64,000 nucleotides of DNA. Origin: Rodentibacter caecimuris. Its GTDB lineage: Bacteria; Pseudomonadota; Gammaproteobacteria; Enterobacterales; Pasteurellaceae. The stretch covers positions 1,798,001 through 1,862,000 of the forward strand of contig NZ_BBXJ01000001.1 in NCBI RefSeq assembly GCF_001019715.1, given 5' to 3'. Positions 6,671 to 34,781 of the stretch are shown here, piece by piece; within the stretch, counting starts at the first letter, position 1; every line of letters starts with the position of its first letter. The position numbers and the translations under genes are program-made. A model generated the notes under the pieces. That model worked only from the letters and a program-made list of their open reading frames with translations. It did no database searches and was not told where the DNA came from.

Positions 6671-6775
6671 TTTTTGAAAAAATAATAAAGTTCGTTGAAT
6701 TTTTCCAATTTAATTTGAGCAAAATCTTAAAATCAGCGAAAATAGCGGACATTTTTTAATGAACAAGAGAAGATC

Positions 6776-8356
6776 ATGACTTATCCTCAAGAAGTGAATA
6801 AACGCCGTACTTTTGCAATTATTTCCCACCCCGATGCGGGTAAAACAACCATTACCGAAAAGGTACTTTTATACGGCAATGCCATTCAAACCGCCGGTTC
6901 GGTAAAAGGCAAAGGCTCGGCAGCACATGCCAAATCCGACTGGATGGAAATGGAAAAGCAACGCGGCATTTCCATTACCACCTCTGTGATGCAATTTCCT
7001 TATAATGATTGTTTGGTCAATCTGCTTGATACCCCGGGACACGAGGATTTCTCGGAAGATACCTACCGCACTTTAACGGCAGTGGACAGCTGTCTAATGG
7101 TCATTGATTCCGCGAAAGGTGTTGAGGAACGGACGATTAAATTAATGGAAGTCACCCGTTTGCGCGATACGCCGATTATCACCTTTATGAACAAACTTGA
7201 CCGTGATATTCGCGATCCCATGGAATTATTGGATGAAGTAGAAAATGTACTGAAAATTCGTTGTGCCCCGATCACTTGGCCGATCGGCTGCGGTAAATTG
7301 TTTAAAGGCGTCTATCATCTGAGTAAAGACGAAACTTATTTATACCAGTCAGGGCAAGGCTCAACCATTCAAGAAGTACGCATTGTGAAGGGATTGAATA
7401 ACCCTGAATTAGATGAGGCAGTGGGCGATGATTTAGCCCAACAATTGCGTGATGAATTGGAATTGGTACAAGGGGCGAGCAATGAATTTAAGTATGATGC
7501 CTTTATCAAAGGTGAATTAACCCCTGTATTTTTTGGTACCGCACTTGGTAATTTCGGTGTTGATCATTTCCTTGACGGTTTAACCGAATGGGCGCCAAAA
7601 CCACAGGCACGCCAAGCGGATACTCGCACGGTAGAAAGCTCGGAAGAAAAATTTAGCGGTTTCGTGTTCAAAATTCAAGCCAATATGGATCCAAAACACC
7701 GCGATCGTGTTGCCTTTATGCGTGTGGTTTCCGGTAAATATGAAAAAGGAATGAAGCTTAAGCACGTGCGTATTGGTAAAGATGTAGTGATTTCTGATGC
7801 GCTAACCTTTATGGCTGGGGATCGCGCCCACGCTGAAGAAGCCTATGCTGGCGATATTATCGGTTTGCATAATCACGGCACAATCCAAATTGGCGATACC
7901 TTCACCCAAGGTGAAAATTTAAAATTCACCGGAATTCCAAATTTCGCACCTGAATTATTCCGCCGCATTCGTCTGAAAGATCCGCTCAAACAAAAGCAGT
8001 TGTTAAAAGGTTTAGTACAGCTTTCCGAAGAGGGGGCGGTGCAAGTCTTCCGTCCGCTTCTCAACAACGATTTAATCGTAGGAGCGGTTGGTGTGCTACA
8101 GTTTGATGTTGTGGTATCCCGACTAAAAACAGAATACAACGTAGAAGCTATTTATGAAAATGTGAACGTTGCAACAGCTCGTTGGGTAGAATGTAGCGAT
8201 GGGAAGAAATTTGAAGAGTTTAAGCGTAAGAATGAGCAAAATCTAGCTTTAGATGGAGGAGATAATCTGACTTATATCGCGCCAACAATGGTAAATTTGA
8301 ATTTAGCTCAGGAACGCTACCCTGATATTGCTTTCTTCAAAACGAGAGAACATTAG
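6776..8356 (+). CDS. prfC: Peptide chain release factor 3
   Basis: 526 residues, the standard length of RF3. This GTPase removes RF1 or RF2 from the ribosome after termination. The G domain shows SHPDAGKTT (P loop, near residues 18-26), [14 protein letters not shown] (G3, near 87-100), and NKLDR (G4, near 140). [16 protein letters not shown] is the switch I region. The EF-G-like domains fill the rest. AAGAGA precedes the ATG. The next element downstream is a hairpin terminator at 8371. Confidence 0.95.
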
Positions 8357-23774: not shown

Positions 23775-24503
23775 TTAATTTTCATTGCTAAAATATATCT
23801 CACAATTTGGCAATTTAGATTGTAACCAGTTAATATCCTGTTGGCACAGTGGATTTTCATTAAGGCTTAGTACTCTTAATTGGGTTAAGTGGGTTAACGA
23901 GCTAATATTGCTGACTTTATTTCTATCGAGGTAAAGCATGGTTAATTGAGAAAGCTGAGCGAGAGGGGATATATCGCTGATTTCGTTAAAGTCTAGGCTA
24001 AGCACTTTTAATTGGTTCAAGTGAGCTAAGGAAGTAATATCACTAATTTTGTTGTCCATAAGGCTAAGCTTGGCTAATTGACTTAGCCGAGCAAGTGCGG
24101 ATATATCTCTGATTTTATTAGATTCAAGGCTAAGCTCTTGCAAATTTATTAAGTGAATTAAAGGGGCAATATTACTGATTTTATTTCTATCAAGATAAAG
24201 CTTAGCCAATCGACAAAGCTGGGCAAGAGAGGATATGTCACTGATTTTGTTATAACGAAGACTAAACTCAGTAAGTTGGAATAATTGAGTTAAATTCTCC
24301 TTTTTATCCTGATTAAACTTATCAACATCAAGTTCTAATATTTCTAAAAAATTTTCTTGAAACTCCTTTGATAAACTATTCCACCATTGCAGCTTTTCAT
24401 TATGATTTTCTCCTGCTGCAAGTGATTCATTAACAATATTAAGTCTTTTACCAAGAGTTTTGACAAAATGTGTTTTGAGAGAAAAAATCCATTTATTACT
24501 CAT
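23775..24503 (-). CDS. Leucine-rich-repeat protein (22-residue SDS22/internalin-type repeats), cytoplasmic
   Basis: 242 residues from the ATG at 24503, which has GGAG six bases upstream; an ATG four codons earlier is the alternative. No signal peptide or membrane helix. Residues 1-70 are charged and helical. Residues 71-220 hold about seven LRRs with an exact 22-residue period: the consensus Asn falls at 85, 107, 129, 151, 173 and 195, in units such as NKISDISSLAQLCRLAKLYL. A short C-terminal cap follows (NPLCQQDINWL). This resembles SDS22-like or internalin-like LRRs. Such solenoids bind proteins; the partner is unknown. The gene has no operon partner, and AT-rich DNA surrounds it, which suggests transfer. 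Confidence 0.8.
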   Translation of the reverse strand: MSNKWIFSLKTHFVKTLGKRLNIVNESLAAGENHNEKLQWWNSLSKEFQENFLEILELDVDKFNQDKKENLTQLFQLTEFSLRYNKISDISSLAQLCRLAKLYLDRNKISNIAPLIHLINLQELSLESNKIRDISALARLSQLAKLSLMDNKISDITSLAHLNQLKVLSLDFNEISDISPLAQLSQLTMLYLDRNKVSNISSLTHLTQLRVLSLNENPLCQQDINWLQSKLPNCEIYFSNEN

Positions 24504-25157
24504 TTTATTCTCCATTTATATTTTACAAACACTATTAATTAAAAAGATTAACTTGTTCATTTAAATCAATAATAATTTCAATACCATCCAATTAAAACAC
24601 CCTCTATTAATTCTTTATCTAAATTTTAAACCACATCAATTTTTACAAAAAACTTCAAATCAACTCACAACTTCTTTACAATAAAATATAAAATCAGTTT
24701 TTTATCCCGAACCAATTACAATATTTATATCATATAATAAATTGAATAAATTCATCTATACTTATGTATGCTTACACTATTATTTTACTCTGGAAATAAT
24801 GAACAGCGCAAATCAAAATCTTGATAGTTATTTAGTCTATTAAATACTATTAATATGAAATTATATTTCTCAGATATAGCCTAAACTCACTACTTTTCTA
24901 AACTTTTTTACCTCTTCATCATTTCCTGATTGTAACGTACAAACATTCTCGTAACATCCATCATCTTTAACTATTTTCAGTTAACGCATCATTTGTTTGC
25001 AATCCTGCGCTTTCCAAAAAGAAAGTTGCCAATTTTAGAAACCAACAATAGTGTTAATCCCTTAGCAAACATTTGTTATATTGTCATATTCTACGTTCTA
25101 TCATTCTATGTTACAATGAACAAAAAGTTCTAGAAAGAAAGAAGAAAGGAATTAAAA
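24504..25157. other. AT-rich intergenic region without a recognisable gene
   Basis: About 650 bp of very AT-rich DNA between the LRR gene and the first XRE gene. I see no open frame with coding character, no tRNA and no insertion-sequence ends. At its right end a possible promoter for the XRE gene reads TTGTCA (25081-25086), 17 bp, TTCTAT (25104-25109), and a small inverted repeat GAAC/GTTC (25118-25121 with 25127-25130) could be an operator. Confidence 0.45.
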
Positions 25158-25559
25158 ATGAACATTAATGAAAAAATTCGTTTATATCGAGAAGAACATA
25201 AACTTTCTCAGGAAGAAATGGCCGATAAATTAAGTATGTCAACAAGAGGCTATGCCAAAATTGAACGAGGAGAGACCCGTGTAAATTTTGAAAGACTAGA
25301 ACAAATTCTCGGTATATTTAATATTGATATTTATGAATTGTTAAATTATGGCGAGAAAGGTAAAGTTTATATTAGTACAGGCGATAATAATAGCAATACT
25401 AATTCAAATATATTTTTAGGTGGAAACGACAATACAGAAAAATTAACTTTAATGCTGTCTCATAAAGACGAAATCATTAAATATAAAGATGATATTATTC
25501 AAGCACAACAAAAAGAAATTACATTATTAAGAAATTTAATAGAAGACGCTAAAGAGTAA
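25158..25559 (+). CDS. XRE-family helix-turn-helix regulator with coiled-coil tail (paralogue 1)
   Basis: 133 residues. An XRE/Cro-type HTH fills about residues 1-60 (LSQEEMADKLSMSTRGYAKI is the helix-turn-helix). A short Ser/Asn-rich linker follows (STGDNNSNTNSN, near 74-85), then a helical tail (SHKDEIIKYKDDIIQAQQKE) that looks like a dimerising coiled coil. AAGGA lies before the ATG. It is a clear paralogue of the minus-strand gene at 30499-30912, sharing INEKIR, the HTH, the linker type and the HKDE tail. Its targets are unknown; the LRR gene and the adhesin remnant are the nearest neighbours. A terminator follows at 25725. Confidence 0.85.
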   Translation: MNINEKIRLYREEHKLSQEEMADKLSMSTRGYAKIERGETRVNFERLEQILGIFNIDIYELLNYGEKGKVYISTGDNNSNTNSNIFLGGNDNTEKLTLMLSHKDEIIKYKDDIIQAQQKEITLLRNLIEDAKE

Positions 25560-25846: not shown

Positions 25847-28260
25847 TTATATTTTTAACCGCACTTTACTGGCACTTCCACCGATTTTGATAACAACCCG
25901 ACCATTATCCGTTACTCTTGAATAACCAACTGCAATCGCCGAAGCACTGCGATAAGTACCACCGCCGACACTCACAATAGATTCACCGGCACGATAAGAT
26001 TGTGGTAATAAGCTCATAGCTACCGCTGATGCGATACCGCCACGTAGGCGACGATCTACCCGATTAATACGGTTGTGAACCTCGCCCATATTGAGTGATA
26101 GTTGTTTATTAAAGTAACCTAAGTTTACCGCATCGTGAGTATCTTTCGGAGCAGCAACATTGGTAACACGCACAGGTTTATCCGAACCGCTGTTTAATCT
26201 GACTACATCGGTATGACGTTGAACATCTTTGCCGGTTTGTGAATCAACATAAACTAACGGTCCGGTCATTTGTAATTGGGTTAGCGCTTGGCTGAGCGAT
26301 TTCTTGCTTTCATCACCGTAAATATCAAAGTTGCCTTCAATATCGGAATTGCCTAAGTCAATTTTCGCATCATCCGCCAATGTTAGAGATTTGTTTATCG
26401 TTACCTCATGTAAAACGGTTGAACCTGTTACATTACGATTTCCTTCAACTATCGAGTCGCCTTTCGTCGTACTATTTCCGTTGACGACTATATCTTTACC
26501 GATACTCACATTACCATTAATTGTCGTATCTCCCTCAACGGTTGAATTGCCTTTCACCACACTATCGCCATTGATGTACTATTGCCACCGACAGTTACAT
26601 CTTTCTCAAAGGTAGTATTACCTTTGGTAACACTGTCGCCCTCAACAGTTGAGTTGCCTTTCACCACGCTATCACCGTTGACCGTCGAATTGCCCTCAAC
26701 AACAGAATTTCCTTTGGTTGTGCTATTTCAGTTTACCGTCAAATCTTTGACAATCGTTGCATTATTCGTAACGCTCAAGTCTTTAGTGATGGTTGTGCCA
26801 TTATTTGCCCTCGCATTCGCGTTATTCGCCGTTGTGTTGGCATTATTTGCCGCATTTACAGCAGTATTCGTAGTATTTGTAATGTTACTGATAGCGTCGT
26901 CTAATTGTCCTTTATTAACTGCATCGGTTTTATCTGTACCTGTAGCAACACCACTAATTCTATTACTGCCAGTATTTATTGAAGAACCGCTAACAAAGGT
27001 AACAGTTTTACTGGATACGCCTAGAGAGACATCACTATTAGCAGAAAATTGTTGATTTACGTTAGCGGCTTGTAGATTGGATGTACCGCTGACGGTTAAA
27101 TTTTTACCGCTAATTTGTTCTTTTGCAGTCAAATTATTTGTGGTTACATCAGTAAATGTCGGGTTATCAACAGTGTTGATTATGATAACACTACCATCAC
27201 GAGAAACATTAACATTTTTTCCCGATTTAATATCAATATAGCCATTTCGTTTAATTGCCGTGCCCGCGTCACTATTGGCTTTTAATGTAAAACTTGAATT
27301 ATTTAGCGCATTATTAATTGCGTCATAAACCGTTTTTGCCGTAGTTAAACCACTTGTACCGGATACACTCGTGACACCTTTATTATCAGTTGAAATATCT
27401 TGAGTCACCACATTCACTTTAACCGCTGCACTGTTACTGCCATCGGTAACAGAAGCTGTCGTATAATTGCCGTTAGCAAAATCGACTTGACCATTATTAT
27501 TAATACGAGATTTTGGAGAATCATTCTCTTTAATATTAAAACCGGAATGAGTCATTACCGCATAAAGTTAACTACCGATTACCGCATCTGTTAAATCTTG
27601 GTTAACACGCCCTGCGGCAACATTAACAATTTGGCGTTTGTGATTTCTATTACCGATAGATAACACGCTTCCTGCCGTTTGTGCCGTAACATTAGCTGTC
27701 CTTGCTGTATTTGAATCATAATTAAATTTGAGATCTTCAACAGAATTAGTGCCATTCGCAGCAGATCCACTACCTAATGCTATGGAATATGTATTATTAT
27801 CTGCAACTGTTGCATTAACCCCTATCGCCGCCGTCCATTGTGCGCTTGCGCTTGCTTTAGAAGAACGCCCTAAGGCTGTGGAAAAACTGCTTGCGTTTGA
27901 GTCTGAACCAATCACCGTAGCACCTTCACCGCTGGTTGCGGCACTTGAACCGATAGTAACCCCGTGTTTGCTTTGGGTGGGGGCAGTAAAACCGATAGCA
28001 ATACCGCCCCGTGCATTTTCATCTTGTCCGGTGTTACCGACTTTTGAGGCAGTACCAATGACAATAGCACCGAGTGCCCACGCTCTAGAGCTATTATATG
28101 CCGGATTAGTACTATTTCGCCCTATAGCGGTTGCATTATTATCTCCCTTAGCATCACCACCTGCAATACTCGTCTCCTCTCCGGTTTTCCAAGCAATCGT
28201 TCCTGAATTACCACCAGGCGAAGAGCTAACAGAAAATGCGTTTGGTACAACCGCCATCAT
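25847..28260 (-). pseudogene. Trimeric autotransporter adhesin remnant (YadA/Hia-type), multiply broken
   Basis: Read on the minus strand, this is one adhesin in three blocks. 28260-27568 is a YadA-head-like region with repeats such as ATVIGSDSNASSFSTALG and a neck ending DAVIGS, where a CAA has become TAA (27568-27570); LYAVMTHSGFN follows in the same frame. 27567-26728 is stalk, ended by a TGA where GGA is expected (26728-26730). A missing base near 26570 then shifts frame inside the repeat stalk. 26560-25847 carries the rest of the stalk and an intact C-terminal membrane anchor (RLRGGIASAVAMSLLPQSYR, ending KVRLKI). No signal peptide exists: an in-frame TAG lies four codons upstream of the first ATG. 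With two stops, a frameshift and no head, it cannot make a surface protein. Confidence 0.88.
26400..26740 (-). repeat. Degenerate 18-bp tandem repeats coding hexapeptides in the adhesin stalk
   Basis: The stalk reads as consecutive hexapeptides of the form G-N/D-S-x-V/T-x (for example GNSVVE GNSTVN GDSVVK). They are coded by 18-bp units rich in GGCAATTCAACGGT and TGGTGAAAGGC variants. The deletion that breaks the frame lies among these units, where recombination or slippage is expected. Confidence 0.65.
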
Positions 28261-30498: not shown

Positions 30499-30912
30499 TT
30501 AATTTTGCAATTTTCGCAATAACGCCAGTTCGCGTTCTAAGCCGTTAATAATTTTGTCTTTTTGTAGTAATAATTCATCTTTGTGTGTCACCATTAATTG
30601 TAATTGTTGAATCGCTTTTTCTAAATTCTCATTCCCCACTGCAAATAAGAAATGATTAGAATTATTTGAATTTGTAGAACCACTTGAGGAATTATTAAAA
30701 TAAACTTTCTCGTTTTCCCCAAAAGCCAACAATTCACAAATATCTATCTCAAAGACTTCTGAAATTTGTTCCAAACGGGGTAAAGTCGAACGCACTTCGC
30801 CCCGCTCAATTTTGGCATACCCCGTTACCGACATTCCTAATTTCTCCGCCATATTTTCCTGAGATAGTTGGTGCTGTTCACGTAATTGACGGATTTTTTC
30901 ATTAATTTTCAT
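30499..30912 (-). CDS. XRE-family helix-turn-helix regulator with coiled-coil tail (paralogue 2)
   Basis: 137 residues. The N-terminal XRE HTH contains LSQENMAEKLGMSVTGYAKI, followed by a Ser/Asn-rich linker (NNSSSGSTNSNNSNH, near 74-88) and a helical tail (THKDELLLQKDKIINGLERE). It is paralogous to the gene at 25158-25559. It is transcribed divergently from the surface lipoprotein gene, with only 131 bp between, and a perfect 7-bp-arm palindrome lies just inside its own promoter. Autoregulation and control of the lipoprotein-Slam pair are plausible inferences. Confidence 0.85.
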   Translation of the reverse strand: MKINEKIRQLREQHQLSQENMAEKLGMSVTGYAKIERGEVRSTLPRLEQISEVFEIDICELLAFGENEKVYFNNSSSGSTNSNNSNHFLFAVGNENLEKAIQQLQLMVTHKDELLLQKDKIINGLERELALLRKLQN

Positions 30913-30935: not shown

Positions 30936-30950
30936 TACCTTATTAAGGTA
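30936..30950. promoter_or_regulatory. Operator-like palindrome between XRE gene 2 and the lipoprotein gene
   Basis: TACCTTATTAAGGTA has 7-bp arms around one central base. It lies just downstream of the XRE -10 box and 23 bp upstream of the lipoprotein -35 box, the position expected of an XRE operator. Confidence 0.55.
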
Positions 30951-30954
30951 ACTG

Positions 30955-30982
30955 AGTGTAACTGTTGGTTAATTGTACACAA
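30955..30982 (-). promoter_or_regulatory. Promoter of XRE gene 2
   Basis: On the minus strand TTGTGT (30982-30977), 16 bp, TACACT (30960-30955). It overlaps the divergent lipoprotein promoter, so the two probably compete. Confidence 0.5.
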
Positions 30983-31001
30983 ATTAATACAAAATTATAA
31001 T
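30973..31001 (+). promoter_or_regulatory. Promoter of the surface lipoprotein gene
   Basis: TTGTAC (30973-30978), 17-bp spacer, TATAAT (30996-31001), a near-consensus sigma-70 promoter 42 bp upstream of the ATG at 31044. Confidence 0.75.
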
Positions 31002-31043: not shown

Positions 31044-33170
31044 ATGAAACTAAAAAATCTCTCAGTTGCAACCGCACTTTTATTGGCATTAACCGGATGT
31101 GGGAGTAGTGGTGGGAATGATAATCGCCCAGCCACACCGAATAACGAAATCAAAAATAATCAAGCAACTCAACAGCAAAGCGAATTAGATCGCTTGAAAG
31201 CGCAACTTGCGCAAGCACAAAGCGAAAAACAATCTACCGAAGAAAAATTAAAACAGTCAGAACAGCTTTCTACGCAAGATTTAAATAAAGCAAAACAAGA
31301 TTTAGCTCAAGCCGAACAACGCTTAAAAGAGGCACAAAAAGCCTTACAAGATGAACAAACCAAAACACAGCAGGCTACTGAAAAAGCAAAAGAAAATTTA
31401 GCCAAAGAAATGGCAGCAAAAGAAAAAGCTGTGAAAGAATTAGAAGCCAAACTAGCAAATGACAAAATTTTAAACCGTAATGAAGTTCTAAAATTTGCCT
31501 TGCAAAGCGGTTTACCACAAGGTTGGGCAAACGAACTCGCCGATGATTTACAAAACAAATCCAAAGCAGAAGTAGCTGATGAAGTATTAAATGCACATAA
31601 AACCATCACATTACGCCAACTTGCGCGTAATTATGGTTTGAATAATCAGGACGCTCGTCAATTTGCCCGAGAAAATAAAAATAGCACACTTGATGAAGCT
31701 GAAACCTTGTTAGAAAGCCGTCGTGATGAAATTCAGCAAAAAAGACAACTACTGATTAATGAAATTTTTGCATTAGCAAAAGAGAAAGGTTTGCCAGAGT
31801 GGGAAGCCCATAATTTTGCCTATGGTAGAAATCATACGGATAAAGAAAGTGCGGTAGAAGATCTCAATAATTATGTTACTGAAAAAGCTGAACGAGAAAC
31901 CAAAATCAATGAATTAATCGACCTTGCTAAAGAAAAAGGATTGGAAGATTGGGAAGCTCAAAATTTTGCTAATCAAAATATAGATAACGATAAATCTAGT
32001 GCATTAGAAACCCTCAATCAACTAGCTGCTGAAAAAGAAAAAGAGCGGTTACAGGCACGAAAAGAAGAGCAAATACGTGAATTAGCTGAAAACTACAAAA
32101 ATACTTATTTCCCTAATGTTCATCACTTTAATACTTGGGAGTTTGCTCAAAAAAATAAAGATAAACCCCTTGAAGAAGCTAAAACGGAGCTTGAACAGTA
32201 CAAAACAAATCGTGAAAAGATTACAGAATTAGCAAAAATCCTCACCGAATTAAATGTAGGTAGTTATTATATCGAACAATTTATCGATCAAAATACGCTT
32301 GTTTCTTTGGAAGAGGCTCAAATCAATTTAGATAAAGAAGTTGATGAAGCGATAATAAATCTCAAAGGTACTGGAGATAAACCACTAGGATTCTTAACAA
32401 AGCAAGATCATTCTATTAGAAATGAACCCATTATTGAAAATGATCGGGAAGTCGCCAATAAAACAGTGACAACTTATGCCGATATTTATAACCAAAAATA
32501 TTCCGTCATTACAGGTAACTATAACAAAACCGTAGAGCCATATACCGAAATAGAATATTACTATGAGGAAGGCGATGATAAAAATTCATCTCCTTTTCGT
32601 TCTCGTGAAGTTTCTAAGACTAGAACAAGCGAAACCTATACAGTAGATGCCGGTTCTTATCCAGGTCATACAAATGGTTTTAAAACACCGGTTGATAAAT
32701 TCCCTTCAGAAGGAAGAGCAACCTATACCGGTGTTGCATTTGATGCTAAAAAACAGGGTGAACTATCTTACACTGTAGATTTCGCTGATAGAAAAGGCTC
32801 AGGAAAAATTACAGGGTTAGATCATATTGGTGATATTACTTTGCAAGAAGCTGAAATTTACAAATCAGCAAGTCATAATAGTATGAGAGTTAAAGGCAAT
32901 GCCATTGCAGAGGCTTGGAACGATCAAGGTGGTGTAACAGGTGAATATGCGGCTAATTTCTTTGGTCCAAATGCAGAAGAAATCGCAGGTAAAGCATCTT
33001 TATCACAAGGGACATATAAATGGATTGAAGGCTCTTCTGAGCCAATGCCACTAGATAGATATATAAGAGATGTTACAATTGAAAGAATAAATGATTCTTC
33101 TCAAGATGGTAGCCCTCGCGGTAATATTGACATTGGCTTCGGTGGCACGCGCGGTGAAATCCAAAAATAA
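31044..33170 (+). CDS. Large surface lipoprotein with coiled coil, helical repeats and TbpB-like C-terminal barrel
   Basis: 708 residues. Residues 1-19 are a lipoprotein signal peptide with lipobox LTGC (Cys19) followed by GSSGGND. Residues about 41-145 are a Gln/Lys/Glu-rich coiled coil. Residues about 144-433 hold six degenerate helical repeats of 40-56 residues with a core like LAKEKGLPEWEAHNFA (near 144, 188, 237, 287, 343 and 391). Residues about 470-708 are beta-rich and end in a TbpB/fHbp-like barrel: GRATYTGVAFD (558), GELSYTVDFADRKGSGKITG (572-591) and the diagnostic FFGPNAEEIAGKASL (639-653). This is the substrate type of Slam translocators, and a Slam gene follows. Ligand unknown. 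Its near-consensus promoter and a divergent XRE gene lie directly upstream. An uptake signal encodes part of the signal peptide. Confidence 0.82.
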   Translation: MKLKNLSVATALLLALTGCGSSGGNDNRPATPNNEIKNNQATQQQSELDRLKAQLAQAQSEKQSTEEKLKQSEQLSTQDLNKAKQDLAQAEQRLKEAQKALQDEQTKTQQATEKAKENLAKEMAAKEKAVKELEAKLANDKILNRNEVLKFALQSGLPQGWANELADDLQNKSKAEVADEVLNAHKTITLRQLARNYGLNNQDARQFARENKNSTLDEAETLLESRRDEIQQKRQLLINEIFALAKEKGLPEWEAHNFAYGRNHTDKESAVEDLNNYVTEKAERETKINELIDLAKEKGLEDWEAQNFANQNIDNDKSSALETLNQLAAEKEKERLQARKEEQIRELAENYKNTYFPNVHHFNTWEFAQKNKDKPLEEAKTELEQYKTNREKITELAKILTELNVGSYYIEQFIDQNTLVSLEEAQINLDKEVDEAIINLKGTGDKPLGFLTKQDHSIRNEPIIENDREVANKTVTTYADIYNQKYSVITGNYNKTVEPYTEIEYYYEEGDDKNSSPFRSREVSKTRTSETYTVDAGSYPGHTNGFKTPVDKFPSEGRATYTGVAFDAKKQGELSYTVDFADRKGSGKITGLDHIGDITLQEAEIYKSASHNSMRVKGNAIAEAWNDQGGVTGEYAANFFGPNAEEIAGKASLSQGTYKWIEGSSEPMPLDRYIRDVTIERINDSSQDGSPRGNIDIGFGGTRGEIQK

Positions 33171-33187
33171 TCTTTAACCTTTAACAA

Positions 33188-33228
33188 AATGCCGTTTAAA
33201 ACAATTTAAATTTAAACGGCATTCTTTT
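33188..33228 (+). terminator. Terminator between the lipoprotein and Slam genes
   Basis: A perfect 13-bp stem AATGCCGTTTAAA (33188-33200) with TTTAAACGGCATT (33211-33223) and CTTTTG after it. It lies 18 bases past the lipoprotein stop and would reduce readthrough into the Slam gene. Confidence 0.75.
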
Positions 33229-33268
33229 GTTCCGTTATATAGCACGACACAAACATTTTGTTGATCTG

Positions 33269-33347
33269 TAGGGACACACTGCGTGTGTCCGTTATAAAAT
33301 CAAATTATTTCAATATGTTATAAGCGGACACACGCAGTGTGTCCCTA
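33269..33347. repeat. REP/BIME-like palindromic element abutting the Slam start
   Basis: Two arms in inverted orientation, 33269-33296 and 33319-33347, identical over 23 bases (GGGACACACTGCGTGTGTCC core) and again over TTATA after a one-base difference. Each arm is itself a hairpin, GGACACAC-3-GTGTGTCC. The spacer is 22 bp. The right arm ends nine bases before the ATG at 33357 and replaces the place of a ribosome-binding site. The form matches a bacterial interspersed palindrome rather than an insertion sequence. Confidence 0.75.
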
Positions 33348-33356
33348 CTATTTATT

Positions 33357-34781
33357 ATGAAAAAACTGACTTATTTTTTACTGGTTTTCCCCCTTATTTC
33401 TCAAGCTGAAACCATTCATACACCTAAACCAATTTTCTTTGAAGAAACAAATGTGCCGAAAACCGAGAAGCCTCAGCTAAAAACACCGCCAAAATCCACC
33501 GCACTTTCCACGCCCCAAATTGCATTGAATGAAAGGGATTCAGTGCAAACAAAACTAGAAAAGTTGATTAACTATGGCGTGGTAAATCAACAATGGGGAT
33601 TATTAAAACGATTATTACCGATCTATCAAGAACAAGCCCATTATGATGCTACCCTTTACCGCTACGCTAAAGGGGCAATGTTACGTGCCGAACGCCAATA
33701 TCCTGAAGCGATTTCCCTTTATCAACAGATCGTGAATGAAAATCCGGCATTGGCTTATCCACGCTTTGATTTGGGTGTAATGCTCTTTGAAAACAAACAA
33801 TATCGCCAAGCAAAAGCAGAAATTGAGCGAGCAATACCTGATTTATCCCCAACAATGAAAGGCTTAACCCAACGTTATTTACAAGAAATGGAAAAACACC
33901 AAAACTGGCAAGTGGATACCGAATTGCAATACACTCAAACGGACAATGTGAATAATGCCTCCGCTCAACAAGATATTATACTTGGCGGTCTTCGCTTCCG
34001 AAAAGACGAGGAATCTTTACCACAAAAAGCGCACGGTTTTCGTTATGGCTTGGGGCTAAATCGTGAAATCAATATCGGCGGCAATCATTTTGTCGCCGTT
34101 ACCAGCAATTTCAGCGGTGTACATTATTGGGATAATCAAGAATATAGCGAAAAATCCTTATATGCCGCATTAGGCTATCGCCATCGTTCCGCCTTGCAAT
34201 CTTGGGGTATTATGCTGTTTTTTGAGCAAAACTGGTTAGGTACGCCACGTTACAGCAAGAACTATGGCATCGTGGCAAATTTTCATCGAGAACTGACCGC
34301 ACTTTGGACGCTTTCAGGCACGCTTTCCCATACACAAAAACGCTACGCCGAAACCAATGTGGCACGCCGACATAATGGTTACATTAACGGTGCAACCCTT
34401 TCATTCAGTTATCAAGCTAAACTGAATTGGTTGATATTTGGTGGTATTGAAGGGAGCCTCGATCAAAGTAAAGATAAAGCGGAATCTTCACTCCGCCGAG
34501 GGCTTAATATCGGCACAATATGGCAAATCAAGGATTTTGCGATGCGTTTAAGCGGACGCTATGTAAAACGTGATTTTCGAGCGGAAAATTTTTATTTCCC
34601 GACGAAAAAACGGCAAGACAAGGAATATAGCATTAATGTAGCGGTTTGGCATAACCAGTTGCAATGGAGAGGGTTTATCCCGAAATTGAATTACCGTTAT
34701 CGCAAGATTGATAGCAATATTCCTGAATTTTACTCACGCCAAAGTGCCGAATGGTTTGTTTCGGTAGAAAAAGATTTTTAG
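33357..34781 (+). CDS. Surface lipoprotein assembly modifier (Slam, DUF560) outer-membrane translocator
   Basis: 474 residues from the ATG at 33357. A GTG six codons earlier lies inside the palindrome and is not convincing. Residues 1-17 are a signal peptide (MKKLTYFLLVFPLISQAET). A TPR-containing periplasmic domain covers about 60-180 (AEREQYPEAISLYQQI-like units such as GVMLFENKQYRQAKAEIERA). Residues about 184-474 alternate as a beta barrel with aromatic girdles and end in the outer-membrane signature EWFVSVEKDF. This matches Slam proteins of Neisseria and Pasteurellaceae, which move TbpB-type lipoproteins to the cell surface. The gene upstream is such a lipoprotein, so it is the likely client. 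No clear ribosome-binding site; a terminator and a palindrome separate it from the client gene. Confidence 0.85.
   Translation: MKKLTYFLLVFPLISQAETIHTPKPIFFEETNVPKTEKPQLKTPPKSTALSTPQIALNERDSVQTKLEKLINYGVVNQQWGLLKRLLPIYQEQAHYDATLYRYAKGAMLRAERQYPEAISLYQQIVNENPALAYPRFDLGVMLFENKQYRQAKAEIERAIPDLSPTMKGLTQRYLQEMEKHQNWQVDTELQYTQTDNVNNASAQQDIILGGLRFRKDEESLPQKAHGFRYGLGLNREINIGGNHFVAVTSNFSGVHYWDNQEYSEKSLYAALGYRHRSALQSWGIMLFFEQNWLGTPRYSKNYGIVANFHRELTALWTLSGTLSHTQKRYAETNVARRHNGYINGATLSFSYQAKLNWLIFGGIEGSLDQSKDKAESSLRRGLNIGTIWQIKDFAMRLSGRYVKRDFRAENFYFPTKKRQDKEYSINVAVWHNQLQWRGFIPKLNYRYRKIDSNIPEFYSRQSAEWFVSVEKDF

Follow-up and report, generated by a model that had tools for sequence, protein, structure and literature searches.

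A locus of Rodentibacter caecimuris, situated in a 64,000-nucleotide stretch of contig NZ_BBXJ01000001.1 (hereafter the window), encodes a 708-residue lipoprotein and, downstream of it, a Slam protein, i.e. the outer-membrane protein of type XI secretion of which the lipoprotein is the putative client, while a Cro/C1-type helix-turn-helix (HTH) protein is encoded divergently upstream. Comparison with related loci revealed that the HTH, client and Slam genes constitute a conserved three-gene unit, that the client interior has recombined at the locus and that the client has recently been exchanged between species. With considerable confidence, we regard a regulated surface-display unit with a generic Slam and an exchangeable client as the best explanation.

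The client combines, behind its lipid anchor, a helical rod, an array of helical modules, a sheet and a C-terminal barrel (Table 1). Seventeen loci were classed by eye from their module and EEARKA counts and their sequences. Class A (rod plus modules) comprises the window, L036, L037, L039, L074, L076 and L077; class B (long helix lacking modules) comprises L038 as well as L040 and L042, which are of a RLEAETAK type; class C (EEARKA or KAEQEAKA-like rod) comprises L043, L044, L045, L107, L109, L110 and L111, with one to three modules in six of the seven. Loci excluded before the count were L041 (truncated), L108 (no client), those with more distant Slams, and L075, whose client length and module matches are the same as those of L074. 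Rod class required nine changes on the Slam tree, which is no better than random (4–10 in 500 label shuffles), and two on the sheet-and-barrel tree, which is the minimum (all 500 shuffles required at least four); it thus tracks the barrel tree and is scattered over the Slam tree. Among the 14 HTH-bearing loci, seven changes were needed on the HTH tree, seven on the Slam tree and two on the barrel tree. In approximately unbiased (AU) tests of groups that were named after inspecting pairwise identities, the Slam data rejected the monophyly of four client groups (p-AU 1.2e-42, 0.005, 0.0006 and 0.003) and the barrel data rejected two Slam groups (p-AU 0.0002 and 0.0008). The pairwise identities themselves, which are independent of any tree, include similar Slams with unlike clients (94% versus 40% for L036/L044, 90% versus 34% for L045/L074, 93% versus 40% for L076/L110) and similar clients with less similar Slams (client 95% and Slam 83% for L040/L042, client 85% and Slam 72% for L045/L109).

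At the DNA level, L040 and L042 are 84–91% identical across the HTH gene and signal peptide, 99–100% across client positions 6712–7911 and 64–89% thereafter, while the window and R. mrazii (L036) share 96–100% in the stalk, followed by a mosaic of 75–100%, with flanking genes at approximately 87%. The window and L038, whose flanks are mostly 93–99% identical, match at 97–99% in otc, at 87–99% through the HTH gene, at 99% up to the signal peptide and at 94–99% past Slam, and their sdaA proteins are 100% identical; no DNA match between the two was found from 31256 to 32935, and the L038 client has 402 amino acids (aa). Synonymous divergence (dS) between the window and L036 is 0.025 in the stalk, 0.23 in the barrel part and 0.33 in Slam, and the corresponding values for L040 and L042 are 0.026, 0.12 and 0.84.

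The lipoprotein-Slam pair recognised in a preliminary description of this DNA consists of two intact open reading frames (ORFs). Slam counts 474 aa from its ATG (an in-frame GTG is present at 33339), terminates in EWFVSVEKDF and matches Pfam SlipAM, the domain called DUF560 in papers, at residues 184–474 (203 bits, cut-off 22, E 8.5e-60) as well as TPR_Slam (79 bits, cut-off 35.2, E 4.3e-22). The client carries FFGPNAEEIAG at residues 639–649 and matches FHBP_C at residues 551–651 (91 bits, cut-off 28.1, E 6.7e-26) and TbpB_B_D (28.6 bits, cut-off 26, E 2.2e-6). Two NCBIfam models remained below their cut-offs on the client: slam_lipo (NF041636, a model of 154 positions) with 58 bits against 80 over residues 542–655 only, and factorH_bind with 38.3 bits against 200 over residues 544–653 only.

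An AlphaFold2 model of the full client, computed from 12 aligned clients (mean predicted local distance difference test score, pLDDT, 74.2; predicted template modelling score, pTM, 0.36), comprises helices at residues 35–74 and 77–136, alternating short and long helices up to residue 441, strands at 462–534 and an fHbp-type barrel at 558–703, in which the loop 656–693 has a pLDDT below 50. In Foldseek comparisons, the barrel matched the C-terminal barrel of meningococcal fHbp (4ayn) with a target TM score of 0.89 and a root-mean-square deviation (rmsd) of 2.6 Å over 167 columns, and C-terminal parts gave weaker matches to hemophilin, LbpB, HpuA and TbpB. Whole fHbp chains aligned poorly, over approximately 250 columns of sheet and barrel (target TM mostly 0.4–0.6, rmsd mostly 7–14 Å). 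A long helical stalk is not known from fHbp. Pfam, AlphaFold2 and Foldseek thus agree with the preliminary description in predicting a distal TbpB/fHbp-type barrel on a helical stalk, and a fold of this kind was indeed predicted in the region proposed for it (residues 470–708). The coiled coil proposed for the rod fared less well, as long helices are predicted at residues 35–136 but a hydrophobic periodicity test of the rod detected no heptad, its peak period of 4.55 having a power that 101 of 1000 shuffles reached. The client had also been called unusually long: its barrel profile begins 525 residues past the lipid cysteine, which ranks fourth among the 36 measurable of 40 clients from Slam-bearing loci picked by similarity to the window locus (range 102–667). 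Stalk length is therefore a continuum within this similarity-chosen sample, in which the window client is long but not exceptional.

The helical repeats noted previously could be defined as a module of approximately 37 aa with the consensus ELKKLAKEKGLDEWEANEFADQNKNKSLDEAKTNLDK, repeated along the stalk. A module hidden Markov model (HMM), trained on clients other than that of the window and its closest relative, L036, found five units at 17–48 bits and a sixth at 3.3 bits, compared to 6.0 bits for the best of 1000 shuffled stalks, and a model of the stalk only (residues 141–439, six sequences) reached a mean pLDDT of 92.5 and a pTM of 0.50. The array was matched in 10 of 140 Pasteurellaceae genomes, weakly in two of them (G007 and G012), and in a class-wide draw of 320 genomes in none besides the window's own genome. 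Domain and fold searches of the array yielded no confident match to a known domain or fold. EEARKA-like units number zero in the window client and 3–31 in L043, L044, L045 and L109.

In the proposed mechanism, the HTH protein would control the divergent operon of stalked lipoprotein and Slam; the lipoprotein would pass the inner membrane by Sec, be lipidated at Cys19 and reach the outer membrane, where Slam would recognise the C-terminal fHbp-type barrel as an export tag and move the client to the outer surface with its lipid anchor retained. The rod and module array (residues 35–441) would then hold sheet and barrel off the membrane and, together with the sheet and the barrel loops, form the host-facing part. 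Slam would be generic for its clade, and homologous recombination in conserved flanks would swap the client interior, rod and barrel alike, between species, such that one export locus would supply different species with different displayed proteins. By analogy with known Slam clients, we infer that the window client is exported in a Slam-dependent manner to the cell surface. Recognition of the barrel by Slam is proposed on similar grounds, the authors of the PmSLP-1 structure having postulated that the barrel serves Slam recognition and that the N-terminal domain and loops serve function (PMC12080921, available sections). The HTH protein would regulate the unit, and the rod may act as an adhesin or in contact with the immune system.

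It is conceivable, if somewhat unlikely, that the stalk is instead a passive spacer and the fHbp-like barrel at its tip a ligand-binding head. Such a head would suit the divergence of the barrel parts, which in same-genus loci other than R. mrazii (L036) are 39–53% identical to that of the window against 74–87% for the Slams, as well as their co-segregation with rod class, the alignment (poor as it is) of whole fHbp chains with sheet plus barrel, and the binding of host proteins by other Slam clients. Yet the sequence match covers the C-terminal fHbp domain only, the module array is a specific and conserved structure, and the authors describing Pls-like lipoproteins placed the effector N-terminal to the pedestal (PMC12282271, available sections). 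Stalk dN/dS (the ratio of nonsynonymous to synonymous divergence) ranges from 0.11 to 0.54 and that of the barrel parts from 0.12 to 0.28; constraint on the stalk within classes implies that the rod sequence matters, as would be expected of a functional domain more than of a simple spacer, though it does not point to a particular ligand or role.

The scatter of rod classes might alternatively reflect old allelic diversity sorted among species and not recent transfer, which we judge rather improbable. Strongly divergent clients do occur within one species, as PmSLP-1 and PmSLP-3, which represent two PmSLP clusters of Pasteurella multocida, are 37.9% identical (PMC10075479, available sections), and old sorting may still account for other pairs; however, the low stalk dS set against the Slam dS in the two species pairs above requires recent exchange for at least these.

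As to how clients are exchanged, the window contains 44 copies of the 9-mer AAGTGCGGT, which we take to be an uptake signal. One copy lies in the signal-peptide codons (31071; offset 27 nt) and recurs at that offset in L036, L038, L040, L043 and L074 but not in L042, L044, L045 and L109; another lies early in Slam (33498; offset 141 nt) and recurs in L036, L038, L040, L042–L045 and L074 but not in L109, while the scanned stretches of L037, L076, L110 and L111 contained none. Given 44 copies per 64 kb, these positions are compatible with transformation and do not constitute proof of it. Extending the exchangeable-client reading, we are evenly divided on whether the locus works as an open socket for display. 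In this view, Pasteurellaceae would plug whole rod-and-barrel cassettes, with no fewer than three rod chemistries, into a conserved regulator and generic Slam, exchanging them across species and genus boundaries by natural transformation via conserved flanks (with uptake-signal 9-mers in many loci), so that related species, and perhaps strains, would acquire different surface rods.

Conservation of the three-gene unit emerged from a comparison of gene order in 41 loci, 40 of which have a Slam match (L046 lacks one). Orthology was defined as a Slam identity of at least 56% (19 loci), and since the stretches of L036 and L041 end too early upstream, 17 loci were testable. In 15 of these the HTH gene lies directly upstream of the client in divergent orientation, the exceptions being L107, which lacks it, and L108, where it lies 2.3 kb away and no client was recognised. 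Beyond this set, no HTH gene was found upstream in L039 (Slam 51%), and the distant loci L048, L049 and L051 (Slam approximately 30%), unlike the remaining distant loci, carry a 43% identical HTH gene upstream. This conserved position makes it likely that the HTH protein regulates the client-Slam unit; phage_RstR of NCBIfam scored 46 bits on it, under its cut-off of 80. It is very improbable that the client serves as a lipoprotein spacer facing inwards or lying in the periplasm, with Slam next to it by coincidence: lipoproteins with long helices are able to bridge the periplasm, and the Slam ORF begins 186 bp away with a hairpin in between, but Slam was present in 15 of 16 loci examined around client matches (from 39 matching genomes; L046 is without it) and the client bears the Slam-substrate barrel.

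Table 1. Observed and predicted features of the locus (window coordinates).
Feature	Position	Strand	Evidence or remark
Cro/C1-type HTH gene, 137 aa (HTH_3, RstR-like)	30499..30912	-	Pfam HTH_3, E 9.3e-14; points away from client
Palindrome TACCTTATTAAGGTA, candidate operator	30936..30950	.	In HTH-client intergenic region
Candidate sigma-70 promoter of client, TTGTAC-17 nt-TATAAT	30973..31001	+	Follows palindrome; weak support
Client lipoprotein gene, Slam-type, 708 aa	31044..33170	+	Intact ORF, Pfam, AlphaFold2
Signal peptide of the lipoprotein and its lipidation site, Cys19 (residues 1–19)	31044..31100	+	Lipobox LTGC read off sequence
Two long rod helices (residues 35–136)	31146..31451	+	AlphaFold2; pLDDT 62–88 per ten-residue block from residue 41
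Array of about six helical modules of ~37 aa (residues 144–434)	31473..32345	+	Module HMM and stalk model
Four-stranded sheet (residues 462–534), handle/pedestal position	32427..32645	+	AlphaFold2, block pLDDT 39–75
C-terminal barrel (residues 558–703), proposed Slam export signal	32715..33152	+	FHBP_C, AlphaFold2, Foldseek
Hairpin just past client stop, possibly attenuating Slam relative to client	33189..33222	+	Folding of 33171–33240
81-bp inverted repeat, resembling a miniature inverted-repeat transposable element, between client and Slam	33268..33348	.	Folding of 33262–33354
Slam / type XI secretion outer-membrane protein gene, 474 aa	33357..34781	+	Intact ORF; TPR residues 64–155, barrel 184–474

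The two divergent transcription units, i.e. the HTH gene on one strand and the lipoprotein and Slam genes on the other, are separated by the candidate operator and promoter. Inverted repeats also occur in this intergenic region in several relatives, for instance GTTACC-N7-GGTAAC in L043 and L109 and GCCACC-N7-GGTGGC in L044, and in several relatives the arms of the palindrome differ yet are still largely complementary. In the promoter scan, an overlapping TGTACA-16-TATAAT scored 10/12, and the region total of 14 was close to the shuffle mean of 12.2. Downstream of the client, the hairpin-bearing segment folds with -16.8 kcal/mol (z -5.6), this hairpin not being listed by the terminator scan, and the segment spanning the 81-bp repeat with -52.5 kcal/mol (z -11.7). 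Two full copies and one partial copy of this repeat occur elsewhere in the genome, and L042 and L044 each contain a 100% identical version at the corresponding position in reversed orientation, so that the repeat has perhaps flipped. A paralogue of the HTH gene (58% identical; 25164–25538, + strand) is located near genes for a YadA-anchor protein (25847–26560, - strand) and a leucine-rich-repeat protein (23775–24515, - strand).

The genome holds five Slam genes, and the proteins encoded next to the other four all have TbpB_B_D and/or FHBP_C matches. One of these, a client of 396 aa (L054, 5443–6633), has an HC2-like (histone-H1-like) helical region before its TbpB-type barrel, with an HC2 match of 30.5 bits under a cut-off of 40, and may represent a second kind of stalk within the same cell. 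Another, at L055 (7776–11741), is a hemophilin-like Slam client that adjoins a TonB-dependent receptor gene, a pair that probably serves heme uptake. Among the compared loci, L046 (5680–7026) encodes a client of the family with no Slam match within the 8.9 kb of DNA examined, possibly an orphan client, and the Slam gene of L125 (1203–2609) is broken into two ORFs by a stop.

Several observations weigh against the interpretation of the locus as a regulated unit with a generic Slam and an exchangeable client. In the Slam tree and the barrel tree alike, 5 of 14 inner branches are not resolved, and a program warning pointed to joined long branches in the barrel tree, which makes the deeper branching order of the latter uncertain. 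Export by a single Slam type of clients with barrel parts only approximately 40–50% identical is assumed from locus conservation, and with five Slams in the genome the cognate pairing is read from adjacency. The sheet and the rod helices were modelled at low to modest confidence, and the low pTM of the full model means that the mutual placement of the parts and the real stalk length are not fixed by it. Moreover, what the dN/dS values show is constraint within a class and not positive selection. Finally, the HTH protein belongs to a six-member family in the genome, its link to the operon consists of conserved position and the palindrome only, and no palindrome was seen in the intergenic regions of L037, L076, L077 and L110.

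The preliminary description had stated that no client of this layout was described, which does not hold. The available sections of PMC12282271 (Grossman et al. 2025) report 173 Pls-like lipoproteins and 20 soluble counterparts with a long helical repeat, a pedestal and a C-terminal barrel; Pls of H. parahaemolyticus was displayed on the surface of E. coli, as measured by flow cytometry, only when its Slam was co-expressed, and some Pls reached vesicles without Slam. The window client shares with such cargo (H. parahaemolyticus Pls, TepS) the lipoprotein nature, long helical region, sheet, C-terminal barrel and nearby Slam gene, and its layout is a variant of theirs; it differs in lacking the EEARKA repeat, which is homologous to staphylococcal Pls, and in having a Q/K/A/E-rich rod and approximately six modules. 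The orthologous-locus relatives L043, L044, L045 and L109 combine EEARKA rods with window-type modules, which follow the repeat. PMC12282271 uses neither of the words regulator and helix-turn-helix, and its passages on horizontal acquisition concern the type XI secretion system and not client exchange. According to those of PMC10075479 and PMC12080921, PmSLP of P. multocida is likewise a Slam-dependent lipoprotein with handle and barrel and strongly divergent variants, so that there is precedent for a Slam client occurring in discrete, divergent variants; its anchoring peptide is predicted to be disordered, in place of which the window client has a helical rod, and pmSLP lies downstream of slam whereas the window client gene lies upstream. 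Short helical modules in chains also characterise tandem three-helix adhesin domains of bacterial surface proteins, such as the BibA N-terminal domain and Protein A repeat constructs. In the searched main-text parts of open-licence papers, no description was found of the module array, of the three-gene unit of HTH, client and Slam, or of clients being exchanged while Slam is conserved.

The locus makes two questions of type XI secretion testable, namely which part of a client is read by Slam and how diverse the clients accepted by a single Slam can be, for which L036/L044 (similar Slams, unlike clients) and L040/L042 (similar clients, less similar Slams) provide natural swaps. Among the compared clients, invariant barrel positions and a mostly conserved tail, GFGGTRGEIQK, point to a likely recognition surface. 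Given the exchange of rod classes, the client at this locus is no species marker, which calls for caution in serology and vaccine work.

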